Source of the DNA: Rhizobium sp. AAP43
GTDB lineage: Bacteria > Pseudomonadota > Alphaproteobacteria > Rhizobiales > Rhizobiaceae
Length of the DNA: 64,000 nucleotides
Direction: 5' to 3'
NCBI RefSeq assembly: GCF_001296045.1
Contig: NZ_LJHS01000044.1
Span: 1-64,000 of the forward strand
In this document: in pieces, positions 1 through 9,020 of the stretch
How positions within the stretch are numbered: position 1 is the stretch's first letter
How the letters are laid out: the number at the start of each line of letters is the position of its first letter
Position numbers and translations under genes: made by a program
Notes under the pieces: generated by a model
The model's database searches: none
Seen by the model: the letters and a program-made list of their open reading frames with translations, nothing else
Told to the model about the DNA's origin: nothing

Positions 1-17
1 TTGACTGGAGGTCAATA

Positions 18-1031
18 ATGAACATCAAGAGCCTTCTCATCGGCTCCGCTGCAGCTCTCGCTGTAGTTTCCGGCGCCCAGGCTGCCGACGCCATCGTTGC
101 TGCCGAGCCTGAGCCCATGGAATACGTTCGCGTTTGCGACGCTTTCGGCACCGGCTACTTCTACATCCCCGGCACCGAGACCTGCCTCAAGATCGGCGGC
201 GAAGTTCGCTTCTCTTACGACTGGGCCAAGGTTGACGACGCTGACTTCGGCGGCGACTTCCAGACCCGCGCTCGCGTTGTCTTCGAAGCCAAGAACGACT
301 CGGAAATCGGCACGATCGGTTCCTACATCCGTCTGCAGGGCACCAGCGACTCGACTTTCTCGGGTGTTGACGCTGCCGGCGACGACGTAACCCTCGGCTC
401 GCTTGCTACCCTCGACCAGGCGTACATCACGGTTGGCGGCTTTAAGGCCGGTTACTTCCTGACCTGGCTCGACGACGTTGGCACGGCTTCTGAAGGCGAC
501 GCCTTCATCACCGACGCCAAGTTCGATGCAGTGTCCTACACCTACGCAACCGACTCCTTCACCGTTGGTCTCGGCGTTGACGAGCTGTCGAACGAAGGCT
601 TCGACGACCTCGGCGTACAGGGCTTCGCTTCTGCTTCGCTCGGCGCAGCCACGATCTCTGCTTGGGGCGCATACGACTTCGACGCTGAAGAAGGCCTCGT
701 TGTTGGCGAAGTCTCGGCTGAAGTTGGCCCGGGCACGTTCGAACTCTACGCTGGTTACGCTTCTGGCGCATCGACCTACGCACAGGTTGCTGAGTGGACC
801 GTTGGCGCAGCTTACGGCTTCAAGGCTACCGAAAAGCTCACCATCACCCCGTCGGCTAACTACTGGGGCGACGTTGGCTTCGACAGCAATGTCGACGCAT
901 GGGGCGTAGGCCTTCTGGCTGAATACCAGATCGCAACTGGCCTGAAGGCTGCTGCGACCGTCGACTACTTCGACGCCGACGACAGCTCGGAAGCTTGGAC
1001 CGGCTTCGTCCGTCTGACTCGCTCGTTCTAA
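18..1031 (+). CDS. Outer-membrane porin, RopA/Omp2 type
   Basis: General diffusion porin of the outer membrane, letting small hydrophilic solutes into the periplasm. The 337-residue product begins with a signal peptide (residues 1 to about 22, ending AQA). A conserved rhizobial porin head follows, with two cysteines (in RVCDAF and ETCLKIGG). The rest alternates short aromatic and glycine-rich segments typical of beta-strands, and the protein ends in RSF, the terminal-Phe outer-membrane signal. The start is fixed by a GGAGGT ribosome site 5 bases upstream. Lysines, phenylalanines and asparagines use the codons AAG, TTC and AAC almost exclusively, as in highly expressed genes. The promoter lies outside the window and a strong hairpin terminator follows. 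Family call is firm; which porin paralogue it is cannot be told. Confidence 0.93.
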   Translation: MNIKSLLIGSAAALAVVSGAQAADAIVAAEPEPMEYVRVCDAFGTGYFYIPGTETCLKIGGEVRFSYDWAKVDDADFGGDFQTRARVVFEAKNDSEIGTIGSYIRLQGTSDSTFSGVDAAGDDVTLGSLATLDQAYITVGGFKAGYFLTWLDDVGTASEGDAFITDAKFDAVSYTYATDSFTVGLGVDELSNEGFDDLGVQGFASASLGAATISAWGAYDFDAEEGLVVGEVSAEVGPGTFELYAGYASGASTYAQVAEWTVGAAYGFKATEKLTITPSANYWGDVGFDSNVDAWGVGLLAEYQIATGLKAAATVDYFDADDSSEAWTGFVRLTRSF

Positions 1032-1054
1032 TTCGATCTTAGGATCGGATAGGG

Positions 1055-1081
1055 AAAGCCCGGCGTTTAGCCGGGCTTTTT
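1055..1081 (+). terminator. Rho-independent terminator of the porin gene
   Basis: Perfect 9-bp stem AAAGCCCGG / CCGGGCTTT with a 7-base loop, running into a T tract. It lies 23 bases after the porin stop codon. Confidence 0.85.
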
Positions 1082-1131
1082 CCGTTTTAGCGCCTTAGAA
1101 CCTGCGTCAGCATGGCCGATGCGTGGCCCGC

Positions 1132-1992
1132 TCAGGCGGTAAGAAACGCCGCGATCTGCTTGGGGAGCGGTGCGAGGTGCAGGATCGGTGCATGGCCTTG
1201 GCCCTCGGCCTGGATGACAACGAGATCCGGTTTGCGGGCAGCCATGGCCTGCACGGTCTGATGTGACAGAAGCTGCGAGTTTTCTCCGCGGATCACCATC
1301 AGTGGCTTTTTCGCAAGACCTTCATAAGCCTCCCAGAGTGTGGGTAAGGGCGCATTGAGGTCGATCGCACTGATTTGCGCAGCGATGGCCGGGTCGTAAT
1401 CGGATGATAGCCCGCCATCCTGTTTCCGGAACAGGGCCGCCGCCATGTCTCGCCAATCCTGATCTGACAGCCGCGGAAATTCCACGCCATAGACCTGGCG
1501 CAGTGCGGCGACTGCCTCATCGACTGTGCCCGGGGTCTCTCGGGCTGCCAGTTGGGTCTGGATCGTCCGGAGTCCGTCCGCTTCCAGCACCGGGCCAATG
1601 TCGTTGAGCACGGCCCGGTCGATCCGCTCTGGATGTGTCATCGCGAGCATGTGCAGGATCAGGCCGCCGCGCGAGGTGCCGATAAAGGCGGCTTGGTTCA
1701 GCGAAAGCGCGTCCATCACCGCGATAACATCGCTGGCTTCCACCGGTACCGTATAACGGGTCGGGTCCGGATCACGATCCGATCGCCCCCGTCCGCGCGA
1801 CGAGATCGAAATGACCTGACGTCCATGCGGGGAGGCGGCGAGAATATGGGCAAGCCCGTCAAAATCGAGAAGGTTGCGGGTCAGACCTGGCAGACACACA
1901 ACCGGGGTCCCGCCATTGGACACACCATAAAGCCGAAGATGCAGGCGCAAACTGTCCGGACCCGTGATGAAGCGATCCTCGACATCCACCAT
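1132..1992 (-). CDS. Alpha/beta-fold hydrolase
   Basis: Small-molecule hydrolase of the alpha/beta fold, substrate unknown. The 286-residue product has the nucleophile elbow G-T-S-R-G with Ser at about residue 107, an oxyanion-type LPGLTRN segment near residue 38, and a C-terminal G-Q-G-H with the likely catalytic His at about 267. No signal peptide. A start 9 bases upstream (1999-2001) would place the GGGGAG ribosome site against the ATG; the start used here, at 1992, has that site 9 bases away and is preferred. It lies downstream of the lytic transglycosylase on the same strand with a 141-base gap, so co-transcription is possible but not shown. Its 3' end faces the porin terminator. Confidence 0.8.
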   Translation of the reverse strand: MVDVEDRFITGPDSLRLHLRLYGVSNGGTPVVCLPGLTRNLLDFDGLAHILAASPHGRQVISISSRGRGRSDRDPDPTRYTVPVEASDVIAVMDALSLNQAAFIGTSRGGLILHMLAMTHPERIDRAVLNDIGPVLEADGLRTIQTQLAARETPGTVDEAVAALRQVYGVEFPRLSDQDWRDMAAALFRKQDGGLSSDYDPAIAAQISAIDLNAPLPTLWEAYEGLAKKPLMVIRGENSQLLSHQTVQAMAARKPDLVVIQAEGQGHAPILHLAPLPKQIAAFLTA

Positions 1993-2133
1993 GCAGGCCA
2001 TCTCCCCTCTGTGATACCGATTGCTGACAGCATTCGAAACCGGATAGGGACAATGCTAGTGCAATTCCAGCAAGACTGCGAAGCGATTTTGCCGGCGCAG
2101 ATGGCGGAAGATTGGAAGGCGACAGAACTTCAT

Positions 2134-4242
2134 TCAGCGCCCGAAGCGCAGATCGTGCACGATGTCGGTCTTCTGGCCAAGCCTTGTCTTGTAGACCTGA
2201 TAGTTCTCCATGACCCGCTGCACATAGTTGCGCGTCTCGGGGAAGGGAATGCGCTCGATCCAGTCGACGACCTCGTCGATTGACTTCCCGCGCGGGTCGC
2301 CATAACGGCCAATCCATTCCGGCACTTTGCGCGGGCCTGCATTATAGGCAATGAAGGTCAGGATATAGGAGCCGCCAAAGGCGTCGATCTGCTCGCCGAG
2401 ATAATGGGCGCCAAGCGTGGCGTTGAAGCCGGCATCGCGTGTCAGTTTTTCCGGCGCATAGGCAATGCCGTGGCGTTTTGCGACGCCACGCGCCGTGCCC
2501 GGCATCAGCTGCAGAAGCCCTTGTGCATTGGCTGGCGACACGGCCCCGGGATTGAACGAGCTTTCCTGCCGCGCAATCGCATAGGCAAGCGCCTTGCCGG
2601 AGCCGGCAATATCCGCAGCATCTGGAATGACACCGACCGGGAAGGCAAGCGCCGGCACATCGATCCCTCGGCCATAAGCCGTCTTGCCGATCTGCAGCGC
2701 CAGATGATGGCCGCCTTCGGATTTTTCCGCCCGCGCCGCCAGAAGCGCAAGTTCCCCCGGACTATCAAGCTGTTCGGCCAGCATCTTGTAAAGTCCCTGC
2801 GCGCGCCGGCCATGCCCCGCCGCCTCGTAACGTTCGATGGCACGCACCGCTTCGCGACCGGCAAAGCGCTCGCGTTCGGTGTTGCTTGGCGCCGGATAGG
2901 GGATGGTCAGGCCGGACGCGCCGCGGCGAGCGGCCGCGAGCTGTCCATAAAATGTGCTGGCATGACGCGCAGCCTGGGCAAATTGAGTGTCGGCCCGCGC
3001 CTTGTCGCCGGCTGCTTCCGCCGTACGGCCGAGCCAGTAATAGGCACGCGACTGAGAAAGCGGGCGGTCAGATGCCGCAAGGATCCGCTCGAAGTGAGGC
3101 CGAGCCAGCGTCGGGTTATGAAGCGATCGCAGCGCATACCAGCCGGCATGGAACTCGGCATCGACAATATCTGCGGGATCGGTCGCAACATGATTGGCGA
3201 CGATCTGATAGGCCTCGCGCGCTTTCCCGAGATCGGCAAGCCCCCGGGCAATGATCCGCTGTTCGTTCCACCAGGCGCCCGCATCGACCAGCCGCTCGCG
3301 TTCCCTCGGCATGCGGGCAAAGAGTGTCGCGGCTTCTTCGTATTTCTGCTGCTTGCGCAGGTTTTCGATGCGTATAAAGAGAGCCGCAGGCTCCTTGGCC
3401 CATGCGGCCTCAAGCTTGCCGATCAGGTCGCCGGCATTGGCCGATCCCGCAATCAGCGCGGCCCAGGCCGTGTACAGTGGGTCTGCTTCCGCAAGTGCAG
3501 CAAAGCGTTTCGCCTGGCTGGCGCGGTCCTTGTAAAGCAGGCGCTCCATGCGCAGGCGGTGATCGGCCTTGTCCAGCATGCCGCCGAAATCGGCCAAAAT
3601 CCGGTCTTCCCAGAAGGTTTCGAGCACTTCATCATGCCAGAGATGCTGGATAATGCGCTTGGCCGCGGCCGCATTGCCGGTATCGGCATGGGCACGGGCC
3701 AGCAGCAGCTGCCCCTCGGTCGTTTCCGGCGCCGTCGTTCCGAAGGCAGACAGGACTAGGCTTGCCGAAGGCTTCGCCTTGAAAAGCGCGCGCTCGGAAT
3801 TCGAGCGAAACGTCTTGGCACCGGGCCAGCCCTCAAGCTCGCGGCTCGCCGCTGCAATCTCTTCCGCGGCAATCTCCGGCAGGCCGGACATGGCAATCGA
3901 CCAGGTCAGCATGTGCCGATCCAGCCCGCTGGCCATCCGGTTGCGGATGGCAACCGCACCCGCCCCATCTCTGGCGGAAAGCGCATCCAGCCCCGCCTTC
4001 AGATCCGGATTGACGGCGGGAAGCCGGTTCGTTCGCGGAATGGTGCCGGTGGTCTCGGCAGACGGCAGGTCAAATGAGGGCGGCATGGCCTTGGTTGGCG
4101 CAAATCCCAGCGGCTTGCTCAGTGGCACGGGCACATCCTCTGGCAAGGATGGCATGTCCGACAATGCTCGCGCGACGTCCAGCGCACCCGAGGCGAGAAC
4201 GCCACAGCTGACGATGGAAGCGAACAGGACGGCTCTTTTCAT
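2134..4242 (-). CDS. slt: Soluble lytic murein transglycosylase
   Basis: Periplasmic enzyme cleaving the MurNAc-GlcNAc bond of peptidoglycan with formation of 1,6-anhydroMurNAc. The 702-residue product starts with a signal peptide (MKRAVLFASIVSCG onward, to about residue 26). A long alpha-helical TPR-like superhelix covers roughly 90-510. The C-terminal SLT domain has catalytic Glu at about 560 in A-R-Q-E-S-S-F, then G-L-L-Q-L-M-P-G-T and A-Y-N-A-G-P. The open frame extends 11 codons further upstream (to 4275), but that start would bury the signal peptide, so 4242 is chosen. The ribosome site is weak either way. It is divergent from dapA. Confidence 0.92.
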   Translation of the reverse strand: MKRAVLFASIVSCGVLASGALDVARALSDMPSLPEDVPVPLSKPLGFAPTKAMPPSFDLPSAETTGTIPRTNRLPAVNPDLKAGLDALSARDGAGAVAIRNRMASGLDRHMLTWSIAMSGLPEIAAEEIAAASRELEGWPGAKTFRSNSERALFKAKPSASLVLSAFGTTAPETTEGQLLLARAHADTGNAAAAKRIIQHLWHDEVLETFWEDRILADFGGMLDKADHRLRMERLLYKDRASQAKRFAALAEADPLYTAWAALIAGSANAGDLIGKLEAAWAKEPAALFIRIENLRKQQKYEEAATLFARMPRERERLVDAGAWWNEQRIIARGLADLGKAREAYQIVANHVATDPADIVDAEFHAGWYALRSLHNPTLARPHFERILAASDRPLSQSRAYYWLGRTAEAAGDKARADTQFAQAARHASTFYGQLAAARRGASGLTIPYPAPSNTERERFAGREAVRAIERYEAAGHGRRAQGLYKMLAEQLDSPGELALLAARAEKSEGGHHLALQIGKTAYGRGIDVPALAFPVGVIPDAADIAGSGKALAYAIARQESSFNPGAVSPANAQGLLQLMPGTARGVAKRHGIAYAPEKLTRDAGFNATLGAHYLGEQIDAFGGSYILTFIAYNAGPRKVPEWIGRYGDPRGKSIDEVVDWIERIPFPETRNYVQRVMENYQVYKTRLGQKTDIVHDLRFGR

Positions 4243-4462
4243 CCACACACCCGAAATTTGCGACCATATTGCCAATAGGCGGGTCTAAAGGTTAACGAAA
4301 TCTTGTCGAACCCGGAAAAGGCGGCCTGGCCAATCCTTGCGGATTCCGTCACAAAACCGTTGAACATGCGCTTGTCGCACCAAAAGCTGCGAAGTAATGT
4401 GCAGCCGATTTAATTCAGGAATGCGGCCGAAGCGTGAATGTCGGCCCGTGGGAGTTCATTGC

Positions 4463-5347
4463 ATGTTCCAGGGATCCATTCCCGCACTCGTCACGCCCTT
4501 CACCGATACGGGGGCCGTCGACGAGCAAGCCTTTCTCGCCCATGTCGAATGGCAGATCGCGGAAGGCTCCACCGGCCTGGTCCCGGTCGGCACCACGGGC
4601 GAATCCCCGACGCTGTCGCATGCCGAACACAAAAGAGTCGTCGAGCTCTGTGTTCAGGCGGCGGCCAAGCGCGTACCCGTCATTGCCGGTGCCGGCTCCA
4701 ACAACACGGTGGAAGCCATCGAGCTTGCCCAGCACGCCGAAGCTGTCGGCGCAGACGCGCTGCTCGTCGTCACTCCCTATTATAACAAGCCGACCCAGAA
4801 GGGCCTGTTCGCCCACTACAAGGCGATTGCCGAGGCAACGGTCCTCCCGATCATCATCTACAACATCCCCGGCCGCTCGGTGATCGACATGACGCCAGAA
4901 ACCATGGGCGCGCTGGCCAAAGCCCACAAGAACATTGTCGGCGTGAAGGATGCGACCGGCAAGATCGAGCGCGTCTCCGAACAGCGCATCACCTGCGGCA
5001 CGGATTTCGTCCAGCTCTCGGGCGAAGATGCGACCGCACTCGGCTTCAACGCCCATGGCGGCGTCGGCTGCATTTCCGTCACCGCCAATGTCGCCCCGCG
5101 CCTCTGTGCAGACTTCCAGGCCGCAACGAGGGCCGGCGATTTTGTGAAAGCGCTTGAACTGCAAGACCGCCTGATGCCGCTGCACAAGGCCATCTTCATC
5201 GAGCCCGGCCTTTGCGGCGCAAAATACGCGCTCAACCGCCTCGGCCGCATGAACCGCAATGTCCGCCTGCCGCTGATGGCAACGCTTGAACCGGCAACGG
5301 AAGCTGCGATTGACGCGGCCATGGTCCATGCGGGACTGATGAATTGA
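4463..5347 (+). CDS. dapA: 4-hydroxy-tetrahydrodipicolinate synthase
   Basis: Condenses pyruvate with aspartate semialdehyde, the first committed step towards diaminopimelate and lysine, feeding cell-wall synthesis. The 294-residue product has the family's normal length. Visible motifs are G-T-T-G-E-S-P near residue 43, YYNKPTQKG near 106, catalytic Tyr133 in IYNIPGRS, Schiff-base Lys162 in GVKDATG, and HGGVGCIS. The start at 4463 follows a GGGAG site by 9 bases and gives the conserved [13 protein letters not shown] head. The open frame begins 22 codons earlier, but that stretch is not conserved sequence. A strong terminator follows directly. In related rhizobia I recall dapA next to smpB; here about 2.5 kb of accessory DNA lies between them. 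Confidence 0.96.
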
Positions 5348-5356
5348 GGGAATGAC

Positions 5357-5386
5357 AAAAGGCCGGCGGAGACGCCGGCCTTTTTT
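5357..5386 (+). terminator. Rho-independent terminator of dapA
   Basis: 12-bp stem AAAAGGCCGGCG / CGCCGGCCTTTT around a GAGA loop, ending in six T. The A-rich 5' side would also give a T tract on the other strand, so it may also stop the convergent gene at 5454-6437. Confidence 0.88.
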
Positions 5387-5453
5387 GGGGTGGGTGTTGT
5401 TCCAAGATAGATATACTCAGATCTTGCAGACTGTTCTTTGCAATTTGTTGCTC

Positions 5454-6437
5454 TCAGAGCACCTGTTCACTTAGTTGGTCTAGAAATGCTAAATTTTGCT
5501 TTAGCAAGGTCAATTTCAGAAATGGTCGGACGTCATAGTAGCGCAAGCCCGCCAGTTGCAGTCCGTCTATGAACTGCAATTGAGCCTCCAACGTCGCTCT
5601 GTTTTGAGAGGCAAGTTCCTCCCAATCTGAAGATATAAATGCTTCGAATTCTGCTTCGGTTTTAGCTACGGCGCCAATTTTCTCCTCCCGCGTTTTGATA
5701 GCGTCTAGTAGAATGGTAACCTCATCCATCGGATAGCCATCCGGTCCTAATTGATTTGGAAAATTTGCCGGCGCTCGCGTGCTTATTGTGTGCTCGATTT
5801 CTTGAAGCATTTTTAGGATACGCTCACCTTTGAGTAGAGCTTCTTCAAAGCTCTCGCAATCGCGCACATTAGGATGTCCAATCGTACCTATTCCAATTTC
5901 ATGAACCAGCTCATTTCTTTCAACAAAGAGTTGGTCTAGCAGTTGGCCGATCGAAAGGTCGTCAACTGCCCGGTTTAGTATGGCCGATAGCGCGTCCTTA
6001 TGTATCCCGAGCGACTCGAATACACGACTGATTGCTGCGACATATTTCTCTTTAGAAGATATACCGGTAGAGCTTGCGATAAGGTGGGGGATGGTGAGTC
6101 CCTCAGCAACCATCTGGGCTAACTTGTCGTTGCTGATTGCTTGTTTGATATCATCACTGCGGATAACTCCCGGAGAAAAACAATACATATCGTATAGTCG
6201 AGATTTCGCGTGCCACTCCAGGCAGGTGACAAAGCCCACTCGATAATATGCAGTGAACTCAAACGAGCTTGGTGCGAAGCGCTGCTTTAACTGAGGCTCG
6301 AGCACCGTGCGAACGGAACGGATGTCTTCCAATAGGCTTTCAAGCCTAGCGATGGCCGACCAAGCTGTGAAGGTTGACACCTCGACAGCTATATAACGTT
6401 TTGCGAATTCGATTTGCGGAAGTGCTTGCTTCGACAT
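5454..6437 (-). CDS. Unknown protein with HEPN-like R-x4-H motif
   Basis: 327-residue, probably cytoplasmic protein of unknown function, without signal peptide or membrane segment. It is mostly helical in character. Around residues 172-180 it reads E-R-N-E-L-V-H-E, matching the R-(x4-6)-H signature of HEPN domains, where Arg and His form an RNase active site; here the residues would be R174 and H179. This is an inference from one motif. Start at 6437 is chosen over an in-frame ATG 22 codons upstream because AGGGG lies 6 bases before it. The gene is clearly AT-richer than its neighbours and sits alone, convergent with dapA, in an insert between dapA and smpB, which suggests horizontal acquisition. 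No partner nucleotidyltransferase is visible, so it is not a standard HEPN/MNT toxin-antitoxin pair. Confidence 0.7.
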   Translation of the reverse strand: MSKQALPQIEFAKRYIAVEVSTFTAWSAIARLESLLEDIRSVRTVLEPQLKQRFAPSSFEFTAYYRVGFVTCLEWHAKSRLYDMYCFSPGVIRSDDIKQAISNDKLAQMVAEGLTIPHLIASSTGISSKEKYVAAISRVFESLGIHKDALSAILNRAVDDLSIGQLLDQLFVERNELVHEIGIGTIGHPNVRDCESFEEALLKGERILKMLQEIEHTISTRAPANFPNQLGPDGYPMDEVTILLDAIKTREEKIGAVAKTEAEFEAFISSDWEELASQNRATLEAQLQFIDGLQLAGLRYYDVRPFLKLTLLKQNLAFLDQLSEQVL

Positions 6438-6605
6438 GTGAGCCCCTGATGGTAAGCAGTGGGGTGGGCGATTGTCTTTCACGTTCTGGCTACATGATGA
6501 CATGCGAGTGCCGGATTCGGGAAGACTGATCGCCTCCAGTGAGAACGAGCATAGCGTGTTCTAAGTGGGTATTGCGCATCAATGACCACAATGTTCCAAT
6601 CACAC

Positions 6606-6712
6606 CCCCACCTTTATTTCCCCCCTCATCCTCCATTACATATCCACGACAACAGCCACGCCCCGCCCGCGTATGGCGAAGACCACGACAAAACCACGGG
6701 CGAAACGGAAGA
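6606..6712 (+). repeat. Direct repeat, copy A (duplicate of smpB leader)
   Basis: About 107 bases nearly identical to 7757-7863. Both copies begin CCCCACCTTTATTTCCCCCC, continue through TCCATTACATATCCA and the GACAACAGCCACGCC segment, and end with CGAAACGGAAGA. I see only a handful of substitutions and a length difference in the C run. In copy A the sequence after GAAGA drifts: where the smpB copy reads GACC-ATG-GCC, copy A reads GACC-ATC-ACC, so the smpB start codon is absent here. Confidence 0.9.
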
Positions 6713-6781
6713 TTTGACCATCACCCGCTGTGGTCATTCCTGCCCAACGTGACCGATGCGTGCTACAAGTGGCTGCGCGGC

Positions 6782-6940
6782 TCAAGACCGGTAAATCGCC
6801 TCCTCCTCGGCGACAAGCAAACACTCCGCGTGATCCGGCAGAACACGAATTGCCTTTATTCGCCTTCCATCCTCAGTTAACAGCTTCAGCTCGACACCAA
6901 GCGAGCGAAGACATGCCGTTGCGCTGGATCGGGATGTAAT
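6782..6940 (-). pseudogene. Possible remnant of a small gene
   Basis: On the minus strand a frame of about 50 codons has protein-like composition, including the segments GVELKLLTEDGRRIKAIRV and DHAECLLVAEEEAIYRS, and ends in a TGA at 6782-6784. No ATG, GTG or TTG start occurs in frame before an upstream stop, so it cannot be an intact gene as read. It may be the tail of a gene truncated when the insert formed, or chance. I do not recognise the protein. Confidence 0.25.
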
Positions 6941-6942
6941 GA

Positions 6943-7740
6943 ATGAGGGAAAAATTGCGCCTGCGGTTATCCATCATCTTCCCGGCATGTTCTGTTCTGG
7001 TTGCCCTGGGCTATCTGCAGCAGCTTTCTGAGTTGTCAGGGGGCGGACAGAGCCCTCGTCTCGGGTATTTTTTCCTTGTCGCGGCAACCGCCGGTGCCGT
7101 TGCGATTGCGCCCCTTGTGCCGTTCGTCCTGGCCACCGTTTTCAGCTGCACTGCCTTGCGTCTGCCCCGGCTTCTCGCTGTTGTCTTGGCGATCTTTGTC
7201 GGACTGTATGGGCTGATCCTAACGATGGGCGGTGCCATTTTTGCGGGCGGTGGCGCCACGATGGTGTTGCTTCACGGGGCGACGCTGACCTTGGCAGTTT
7301 CAGCGTCGGTGCTTCTGATTGCGCGGCATGGTCCTGGCACAGTGTTCCGCCGGCTGTCGTTCACACTATTCATGATCCCCACATGTGCAGCCATGTGGTC
7401 TCTGGCGACCGTGCCGATTGCCGTCTGGCGTTCGAACTCGATTGCACTCGGTGAGCCTATGTGCGTGGCGGAACATCATGACGGGAGCTATTCCCCCGTG
7501 TCATGGTCCTCTCAAAGGGCCTTCTCGCTCTACACAACCCGGACAGGCTACAAAAATGCAGACGCGTGGTACTTCCATCGCATTCTGCAGGTGAAGCGAA
7601 CCTCAGGTTTCGAAGTTTTCAATTGGTCTTTCGCCACGATGAACTTCGAGCCGATCATGGCGCCTGAGAGGTATCTCGTCAAAATCGTTGGCGTCTGCGT
7701 TCCTCGCAAGGACTTCTGGTCCTCAGTTGCGGTCCTCTGA
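6943..7740 (+). CDS. Unknown membrane protein between leader repeats
   Basis: 265-residue inner-membrane protein of unknown function. The first about 165 residues hold four to five hydrophobic segments (around 8-26, 40-68, 75-122 as two, and 136-160). A polar C-terminal region of about 100 residues follows, probably periplasmic, with two cysteines (in EPMCVAEHH and VGVCVPRK) that could pair. The ribosome site is modest (GGATGT, 6 bases from the ATG). It is flanked by two copies of the smpB leader and ends 16 bases before the second copy, so the gene and one leader copy look like a single inserted or duplicated unit. It does not resemble any family I know. Confidence 0.65.
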
Positions 7741-7756
7741 TCTATCGACCGTTCTC

Positions 7757-7863
7757 CCCCCACCTTTATTTCCCCCCCATCCTCCATTACATATCCATGA
7801 CAACAGCCACGCCCCGCCCGCGTATGGCGAAGACCACGACAAAATACCGGGCGAAACGGAAGA
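7757..7863 (+). repeat. Direct repeat, copy B (native smpB leader)
   Basis: Second copy of the 107-base repeat. It includes the smpB ribosome site (GGAAG) and ends 7 bases before the smpB ATG at 7871. See copy A at 6606-6712; the centre-to-centre distance is about 1.15 kb. Confidence 0.9.
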
Positions 7864-7870
7864 CAAGACC

Positions 7871-8347
7871 ATGGCCCCCAAAGGCTCGCAGCGCACCGTC
7901 AACAAGATCGTCGCGGAAAACCGCAAGGCGCGGTTCAACTACGAGATCATCGACACCTATGAGGCAGGCCTTGTGCTGACCGGCACGGAGGTCAAGTCGC
8001 TGCGCGAGGGCAAGGCCAATATTGCCGAATCCTATGCCTCGGATGAGGGCGAGGAGATCTGGCTGATCAATTCGCATCTGCCGGAATATCTGCAGGCCAA
8101 CCGCTTCAATCACGAGCCGCGCCGCCGCCGCAAGCTGCTTCTGTCCAAGCGCGAGATCAACCGCCTGCGCGTTTCGATCAATCGCGAGGGCATGACGCTC
8201 GTGCCGCTCAAGATCTATTTCAACGAGAAGGGCAGGGCGAAGCTGGAGCTGGCGCTCGCCAAGGGCAAGAAGCTGCATGACAAGCGCGAGACCGAGAAGG
8301 AACGCGACTGGAACCGCCAGAAGCAGCGCCTGATGAAGACGGGTTGA
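7871..8347 (+). CDS. smpB: SsrA-binding protein SmpB
   Basis: Binds tmRNA and delivers it to stalled ribosomes for trans-translation. The product is 158 residues, the family's usual size. It shows the conserved N-terminal [13 protein letters not shown], then [14 protein letters not shown], the AYA-like region [17 protein letters not shown], and a lysine/arginine-rich tail ([20 protein letters not shown]) that enters the decoding centre. The ATG at 7871 has GGAAG 8 bases upstream. The open frame runs further upstream through the leader repeat, but that part is not SmpB-like. The next gene begins 4 bases after the stop, so the two are probably co-transcribed. ssrA itself was not found in this window. 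Confidence 0.96.
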
Positions 8348-8351
8348 TCCC

Positions 8352-8771
8352 ATGGCGCTCACCCATCTGAAGGTCACCGTCGGCCCCTTCATCTTCGAAG
8401 CCCGGTTCGAGCTGGAAAAGGCGCCCGAGACCTGCCGTATCTTCGAAACCTTCCTGCCGTTCCGCAACCAGGCGATCCATTCGCGCTGGTCGGGCGAGGC
8501 GGTCTGGGTGCCGCTCGGCGATTTCCAGTTCGGTGCCGGCTTTGAAAACCACACCGCCCATCCCTCGCGCGGCGACATTCTGCTGTATCCCGGCGGCTTC
8601 AGTGAGACGGAGTTGCTGTTTGCTTATGGCAGCTCGCAATTTGCCAGCAAGATGGGCGTGCTCGCCGGCAATCACTTTCTGACGGTCGTGAAGGGTGCGG
8701 AGCAGCTGGAGGCCATGGGCAAGATGATCTTGTGGCAGGGCGCGCAGGATATCGCTTTCGAGGCGATGTAA
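8352..8771 (+). CDS. DUF3830-like protein (cyclophilin-like fold)
   Basis: 139-residue cytoplasmic protein resembling the DUF3830 family. Recognisable features are an early F-E-A-R-F-E-L-E-K-A-P-E-T-C segment, W-S-G-E-A-V-W-V-P-L, and a conserved second half with GDILLYPGGFSETELLFAYG, then L-A-G-N-H-F and LWQGAQDIAFEAM at the C-terminus. The family is predicted to share a beta-barrel fold with cyclophilin-type proteins; biochemical function is unknown to me. It starts 4 bases after smpB and probably shares its transcript. An inverted-repeat element that could terminate transcription follows. Assignment rests on remembered family sequence. Confidence 0.75.
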   Translation: MALTHLKVTVGPFIFEARFELEKAPETCRIFETFLPFRNQAIHSRWSGEAVWVPLGDFQFGAGFENHTAHPSRGDILLYPGGFSETELLFAYGSSQFASKMGVLAGNHFLTVVKGAEQLEAMGKMILWQGAQDIAFEAM

Positions 8772-8781
8772 GTAAAGAAAG

Positions 8782-8990
8782 TCCCCTCCCAAACCCTCCC
8801 CACAAGGGGGAGGGCTTAACTCGGCCTCGCTGTCTCCGCCTCCGCTAAGCGGACGTCGATTGTAGGTGGAGCAGGGAAGCCGCGTGTCCTCTCCACACGA
8901 TGAGGTGCCGGCAAACCGCTTGCTATATCGACAAAGGTGTACGCGACGCGAAAGCCCCTCCCCCTTGTGGGGAGGGGGTGGGGAGGGGAT
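8782..8990. repeat. Small intergenic element bounded by inverted repeats
   Basis: Arm 1 (8782-8815) reads TCCCCTCCC-AAA-CCCTCCCC followed by ACAAGGGGGAGGGC. Arm 2 (8954-8990) is its near-complete reverse complement (GCCCCTCCCCCTTGTGGGGA and on). Each arm is itself a partial palindrome around CCCC-ACAA-GGGG. The about 138 bases between arms show no gene. It lies between two convergent genes, the DUF3830-like gene and the NYN gene, and could act as a two-way terminator. It resembles short palindromic intergenic repeats common in rhizobial genomes. Confidence 0.7.
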
Positions 8991-9020
8991 TTTTGTGACC
9001 TGAAATCGGAGGGCGAGCCC

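Follow-up and report, generated by a model that had tools for sequence, protein, structure and literature searches.

The smpB gene of Rhizobium sp. AAP43 is preceded by a promoter and leader of which a second, truncated copy stands upstream, beyond a gene for a 265-amino-acid protein. This arrangement, found in a stretch of 64,000 nucleotides (positions 1 to 64,000 of contig NZ_LJHS01000044.1, hereafter the window), raises the question of how a core gene's 5' end came to be duplicated at this locus, and whether the duplicate belongs to the gene that it precedes or to a process acting on the locus as a whole.

The duplicated leader and its neighbors

A gapped alignment matched the smpB promoter/leader at 7757-7872 to 6605-6721 over 117 columns at 93.2% identity (E ~1e-46), confirming the duplicated leader described by an earlier sequence-only reading. 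The copies, A upstream and B next to smpB, lie on the same strand with a start-to-start spacing of 1,151 bp and share a longest identical block of 46 bp; as an ungapped direct repeat they extend over 6605-6726 and 7756-7877 (122 nt, 87%). The repeated block looks like the smpB promoter plus 5' leader, its window copy ending at the AT of the start codon, where copy A reads ATC at 6720 and smpB reads ATG at 7871, and the promoter part of copy A is nearly unchanged. A search of the window's own genome for further copies of the block returned these two and no third (next match ~30 bp, E 0.32), which rules out a dispersed repeat. No RNA family reached the gathering threshold in the window, and a consensus fold of 33 smpB leaders, made from a gappy alignment, gave three pairs with zero covariation. 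The features from dapA to smpB are as follows, each with its basis in brackets.

4397-5347, plus strand: dapA, the left core flank (Pfam DHDPS, 1.8e-91)
5348-5386, plus strand: hairpin followed by a T run, resembling a terminator of dapA and bounding the variable interval on the left (the sequence itself)
5454-6437, minus strand: cargo 1, a 327-amino-acid HEPN-like protein with an R-x4-H motif, RNELVH (motif, without a profile match)
6605-6721, plus strand: copy A, truncated duplicate of the smpB promoter/leader, a putative scar (repeat alignment)
6722-6942, no strand assigned: filler that may include the C-terminal remnant of a minus-strand gene, at about 6785-6900 (chance-level matches)
6943-7740, plus strand: cargo 2, a 265-amino-acid protein of a rare family (rare relatives)
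7757-7872, plus strand: copy B, the smpB promoter/leader proper, with the ribosome site and the start of the ATG (repeat alignment)
7871-8347, plus strand: smpB, the right core flank (Pfam SmpB, 9.7e-60)

The 265-amino-acid gene starts 223 bp past the dead start codon of copy A on the same strand, and the orphaned leader may, from this placement, serve as its promoter. The 221 bp of filler between copy A and this gene matched the genus loci at chance level only, in short stretches (best E 0.007 over 18 amino acids), and no match in PHROGs or NCBIfam. Downstream of smpB lies a 37-nt inverted repeat (8778-8814 and 8956-8992, 84% complementary, 141 nt between the arms).

Neither cargo protein matched a family in Pfam, PHROGs or NCBIfam (best Pfam E 0.14 for the 327-amino-acid protein), and no PADLOC model for either was among the matches listed. 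The 327-amino-acid reading of 5454-6437 uses the start supported by its relatives, and the gene has a G+C content of 0.475 against 0.607 for the window. The protein was found in 3 of 397 genomes of the order, its own included, the two relatives standing at 47% and 33%; another relative (51%) lies on an Agrobacterium plasmid (L203) with an annotated HEPN-domain protein and a site-specific integrase as neighbors, and one (L201) adjoins an ORF resembling a D12-type DNA methylase. HEPN RNases are recognized by an R-x4-6-H motif within an all-helical domain. The R-x4-H of this protein (RNELVH), which we take to be the HEPN motif, includes R174 and H179, both invariant in all three aligned sequences, and a weak structure model (pLDDT 61.6, alignment of three sequences) is mostly helical. 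Comparison of the same protein's alignment with solved structures gave an unconvincing best match (E 0.032). Judging from its motif, the protein may act as an RNase, and we regard 5454-6437 as a candidate defense gene.

The 265-amino-acid protein has a hydrophobic N-terminal part and a C-terminal nonmembrane part, and its gene occurs in 1 of 63 genomes of the genus, the window's own. One relative in another family of the order is 36% alike over residues 6-262, and there are 17 weaker relatives in the order; partial relatives (33-66% of the length) occur on six plasmid records, five from Rhizobium and one from Rhodobacter, one of them near toxin-antitoxin genes. Scans of viral contigs and named genomes, which reach close relatives only, returned none. 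The structure model is weak (pLDDT 45.3, alignment of two sequences), and a membrane-anchored accessory or defense protein is our guess at its nature.

Gene turnover between dapA and smpB

SmpB was found in 60 of the 63 genus genomes (G016, G076, and G018 gave no SmpB match and were left out), and the interval upstream of its gene was read in 59 relatives and the window, giving 60 genus loci. dapA stands upstream of smpB in 59 of them, the 60th being cut by a contig end. Gap lengths in the genus are bimodal: 32 loci have a short gap of 107-226 bp and 27, the window included, a filled one of 834-5,681 bp, and the interval of G009 is filled and left out of the length counts because its contig ends inside it. 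Identity of smpB equates G009 with Rhizobium wuzhouense W44, G017 with R. rhizophilum 7209-2, G070 with R. rosettiformans W3, and G034 with Ciceribacter selenitireducens; the group that includes the first three species is now named Peteryoungia, according to the accessible part of its description (PMC9558580). Nineteen of 80 further named loci had an smpB identical to that of a genus genome, and the other 61, counted apart and mostly from other Rhizobiaceae by their titles, had gaps of -1 to 241 bp with no filled interval. Among the loci read, the interval is thus filled only in this genus. In 5 of the 61 named loci (L147, L148, L151, L155, and L156) dapA and smpB overlap as TGATG, leaving smpB without any intergenic leader.

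Most filled genomes, though not every one, share some 40-45 bp 3' of dapA before the sequences diverge, and about 113 bp 5' of smpB are conserved among filled genomes; what lies between is mostly unrelated. A tree of dapA plus smpB, itself built from flanking genes that may recombine, requires at least five changes between the filled and empty states, or three if only starred branches are counted. The insertion polymorphism that the sequence-only reading had anticipated is strong (32 short against 27 filled of 60 genus loci). The variation is not confined to the part between the repeats, as that reading had it, and extends over all of 5348-7755. Its expectation that genomes without the 6943-7740 gene would have a single leader failed, as six such genomes hold two leaders around different cargo. 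By the same observation, retention of both copies without any polymorphism, a pattern that it had named as speaking against insertion, did not occur. We conclude with high confidence that the whole interval between dapA and smpB is a hotspot of gene turnover. The repeat in the window is best read as one scar among several that a general process has left at this hotspot, and not as something tied to the membrane-protein gene.

The cargo was surveyed as 76 ORFs of at least 85 amino acids, chosen by a simple script in 28 loci, a cutoff by which short genes are missed. Eighteen of these ORFs form seven similarity groups of two to four, and 58 match no other at E 1e-5. Insert G+C content is below that of the flanks in every one of the 27 filled intervals (means, 0.546 versus 0.628). 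Alignments of 59 of the 76 ORFs were scanned against Pfam and PADLOC, the best 25 of 88 families being listed in one scan and the best 25 of 70 in the other, and complete Pfam lists for these 59 were taken at E 1e-7. The complete lists contained no integrase or other site-specific recombinase family for the 59 ORFs, and transposition domains of the IS110 and rve types in one ORF each. The IS110 case is in G010, where the DNA separating two leader copies contains an IS110-family transposase and a further transposase-like ORF (L030:8794-10747).

Some of the cargo resembles antiphage defense genes. Single-protein PADLOC scans at E 1e-5 matched 15 of 30 proteins chosen as candidates and left 15 without a match; matches at E <1e-20 occur in 7 of the 27 filled intervals and in G009, all of them to single proteins and not to complete systems. 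The strongest are Drt6/Drt4 (G061), Dsr1 with a SIR2-like domain (G067), IetA plus IetS (G002), IetS (G009), a type II methyltransferase with a DpdB-like protein (G060), candidate PDC-M30/M41 proteins (G077), a PifA-like KAP NTPase (G017), and PD-Lambda-2_B (G010), with weaker matches in G035, G079, G070, and G003. Metabolic and regulatory genes also occur among the cargo (short-chain dehydrogenase, TetR, AraC, GGDEF, TelA). The most recurrent cargo after a 114-amino-acid ORF is a proteasome-like gene (Pfam PF00227, weak) directly 3' of dapA in G025, G070, G079, and G081 (L026:4323-5252, L068:8520-9281, L073:9058-9927, and L074:4052-4954).

Truncated flank-gene copies and their possible origin

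Truncated pieces of the flanking genes stand inside 10 of the 27 filled intervals, all in direct orientation, seven from the 5' end of smpB and three from the 3' end of dapA; the inserts read in reverse at the same threshold gave 0 matches to the flank genes. The pieces span 68-143 aligned nt and always derive from the core-gene end that faces the interval, namely, the last 124 nt of dapA, or the leader plus at most 31 nt of smpB. Leader copies occur in the window and in G062, G017, G025, G082, G002, and G010, the piece in G082 being 76 nt only, with the promoter part missing. In these six relatives the copy reaches 28-31 nt into smpB, so the divergence exactly at the start codon that the sequence-only reading had emphasized holds for the window copy (ATG to ATC) and is peculiar to it. 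The same hairpin and 113/114-amino-acid minus-strand gene follow the leader copy in all six, and this shared junction beside the same module indicates that the six copies are probably one ancestral event. A 114-amino-acid-type gene without a leader copy is present in G032 and G061, so the copy is either not needed for this module or has been lost from it. The dapA pieces run from -83 to +8 in G032 (92%), from -90 to +32 as two pieces in G070 (81-85%), and from -124 to -13 in G014 (80%); these truncated 3' ends (L027, L068, and L038) mirror the smpB leader copies. Counted in this way, there may be about five independent scars: the window, the six-genome group, G032, G070, and G014.

Since truncated copies of either flank always appear in order and orientation, one-sided homologous recombination is the simplest common cause. 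We therefore consider it reasonably probable that the hotspot works without an integrase of its own, that its cargo is turned over by recombination anchored in both core flanks, and that one such event left copy A as its scar; our confidence in the one-sided mechanism is moderate. A donor fragment carrying new cargo and one flank would recombine homologously through that flank only, either as a religated circle by a single crossover or by homology-facilitated illegitimate recombination (HFIR), and would leave a truncated flank duplicate where the resident cargo meets the incoming one. HFIR would be marked by a microhomology of 3-10 bp at the nonhomologous join, of which the genomes read here supply the junction but not the donor side. 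For the window, an older HEPN-like gene would then be parted from a newer 265-amino-acid gene by the smpB promoter/leader, ending at the start codon, with the intact leader retained in front of smpB. The earlier proposal that new DNA had entered by homologous recombination through the leader is supported, and we infer from the present arrangement both the integration event in the window and the order of its modules; among the 60 genus loci, no near relative of the window preserves the interval as it stood prior to the second module. A likely before/after pair, to judge from its gene order, is offered by G009, in which an IetS gene is directly followed by the smpB leader within 1.2 kb on the contig, and G002, in which the IetS gene is followed by leader A, the 114-amino-acid-gene module, and leader B, their common part being 90.6% alike over 1,118 bp. 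For the 17 of 27 filled intervals that have no scar, replacement on both sides or decay has to be invoked. Crossing over between A and B could in turn delete the newer module, an outcome that the 46-bp identical block makes plausible.

That copy A repeats the leader in direct orientation would also be expected had the leader and smpB been duplicated in tandem and the upstream smpB later been lost or replaced by foreign cargo, and the pairing of window A with window B in the leader tree (0.74) agrees with this. Such a history is nonetheless unlikely: no smpB coding sequence past the start codon remains between the window copies (a 14-nt chance match only), the copies of six relatives all end within 28-31 nt of smpB, and the dapA 3' fragments of three genomes are left unexplained. 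The sequence-only reading had offered this duplication and replacement as its second route, to which on these grounds we give little weight.

That common end 28-31 nt into smpB in six relatives is what an attachment site would produce, and a small mobile element might have integrated site-specifically at the 5' end of smpB, restoring the gene with its own leader. Yet the window copy stops at the start codon, the six relatives' copies adjoin homologous DNA, so that one event explains their common end, and the three dapA fragments start at different places (-83, -90, and -124). No recombinase family was found in the window's two cargo proteins, the scar ends differ among genomes, and the absence of integrase families noted above for 59 of the 76 cargo ORFs likewise stands against this account, which we hold to be very improbable. 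We give equally little credence to a self-seeding arrangement, in which modules would bring the smpB promoter and first codons with them, restore smpB, and leave the old promoter as both anchor and cargo promoter, each integration easing the next, while a recombinase acting in trans would serve the shared site about 30 nt into smpB of the six genomes.

Copy A could also have been kept or selected as a promoter for the 265-amino-acid gene, whatever its origin, given its nearly unchanged promoter part and the gene downstream on the same strand. In the six relatives, however, the gene after copy A is on the opposite strand, so a promoter role is not general, and as an explanation of the copy we find it decidedly unlikely.

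Entry of cargo by one-sided recombination through the smpB flank can also be set beside the ancestry of the two core genes. G027 is the closest filled relative of the window in five of the eight segments from 1 to 5347, both halves of dapA included, and the dapA tree groups the two with support of 100/99. By BLAST score it comes 19th of 20 over 7871-8371 and 16th of 17 over 8371-8871, and farther to the right, past 8871, its position moves between 1 and 18. The grouping of window and G027 was rejected on smpB plus the next 424 bp (p-AU 0.022), in a test whose group was picked with the dapA result already in view and whose smpB tree contains long branches. This discordance between dapA and smpB fits an arrival of the cargo together with its smpB side, though the closeness of G027 is uneven along the window, so ordinary recombination could also give the discordance at smpB.

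Known systems and what the locus offers

Partial duplications of a homologous arm are known from Escherichia coli, where, according to the accessible part of the report, a linearized plasmid bearing a single homologous arm was introduced by conjugation and 56 of 60 screened clones yielded the PCR product of a partial arm duplication, with duplications of 109-950 bp in 14 sequenced clones explained by a single crossover of a circle; HFIR in published work is rare and usually accompanied by deletion, a point against this route at our locus (PMC3240628). The likeness to our locus, so far as that account goes, lies in the joining of a homologous end with a nonhomologous join and in the partial arm duplication, and the difference in that those events were experimental, whereas the dapA-smpB case is inferred from natural genomes, involves pieces of 68-143 nt, and uses either flank (PMC3240628). 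For the type VI secretion effector-immunity modules of Vibrio cholerae, the proposed model is displacement by a route resembling HFIR, and its authors state, in the part of the paper accessible to us, that they found no evidence for an integrase (PMC5361080). As far as that part describes it, there too a conserved anchor is the entry point of a new module, next to which an orphan from the earlier state is left, but the Vibrio orphan is an immunity gene and that of dapA-smpB is a truncated core-gene leader or 3' end (PMC5361080). The core defense hotspots of Pseudomonas aeruginosa, as portrayed in the accessible part of their description, likewise hold variable antiphage cargo between constant core genes, but are larger (median of 26 kb for cDHS1) and carry a mobile-element gene at 53-71% of sites (PMC10250203). 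Unlike them, the dapA-smpB inserts stay below 6 kb, with transposition domains in 2 of the 59 scanned ORFs. We recognized no description of the dapA-smpB locus as a hotspot in open-access titles and abstract openings, which is weak evidence of its being unpublished.

The scar-leaving process is thus known in kind, and the value of dapA-smpB is as a readable example of it. To our knowledge, the entry of cargo into integrase-free hotspots has so far mostly been inferred. Because this interval retains pieces of both flanks as footprints, the sequence can reveal from which side and in what order modules arrived, and the small size of the cargo makes each step testable. The locus also gives a short interval in which to seek new defense genes in the Peteryoungia/Ciceribacter group.
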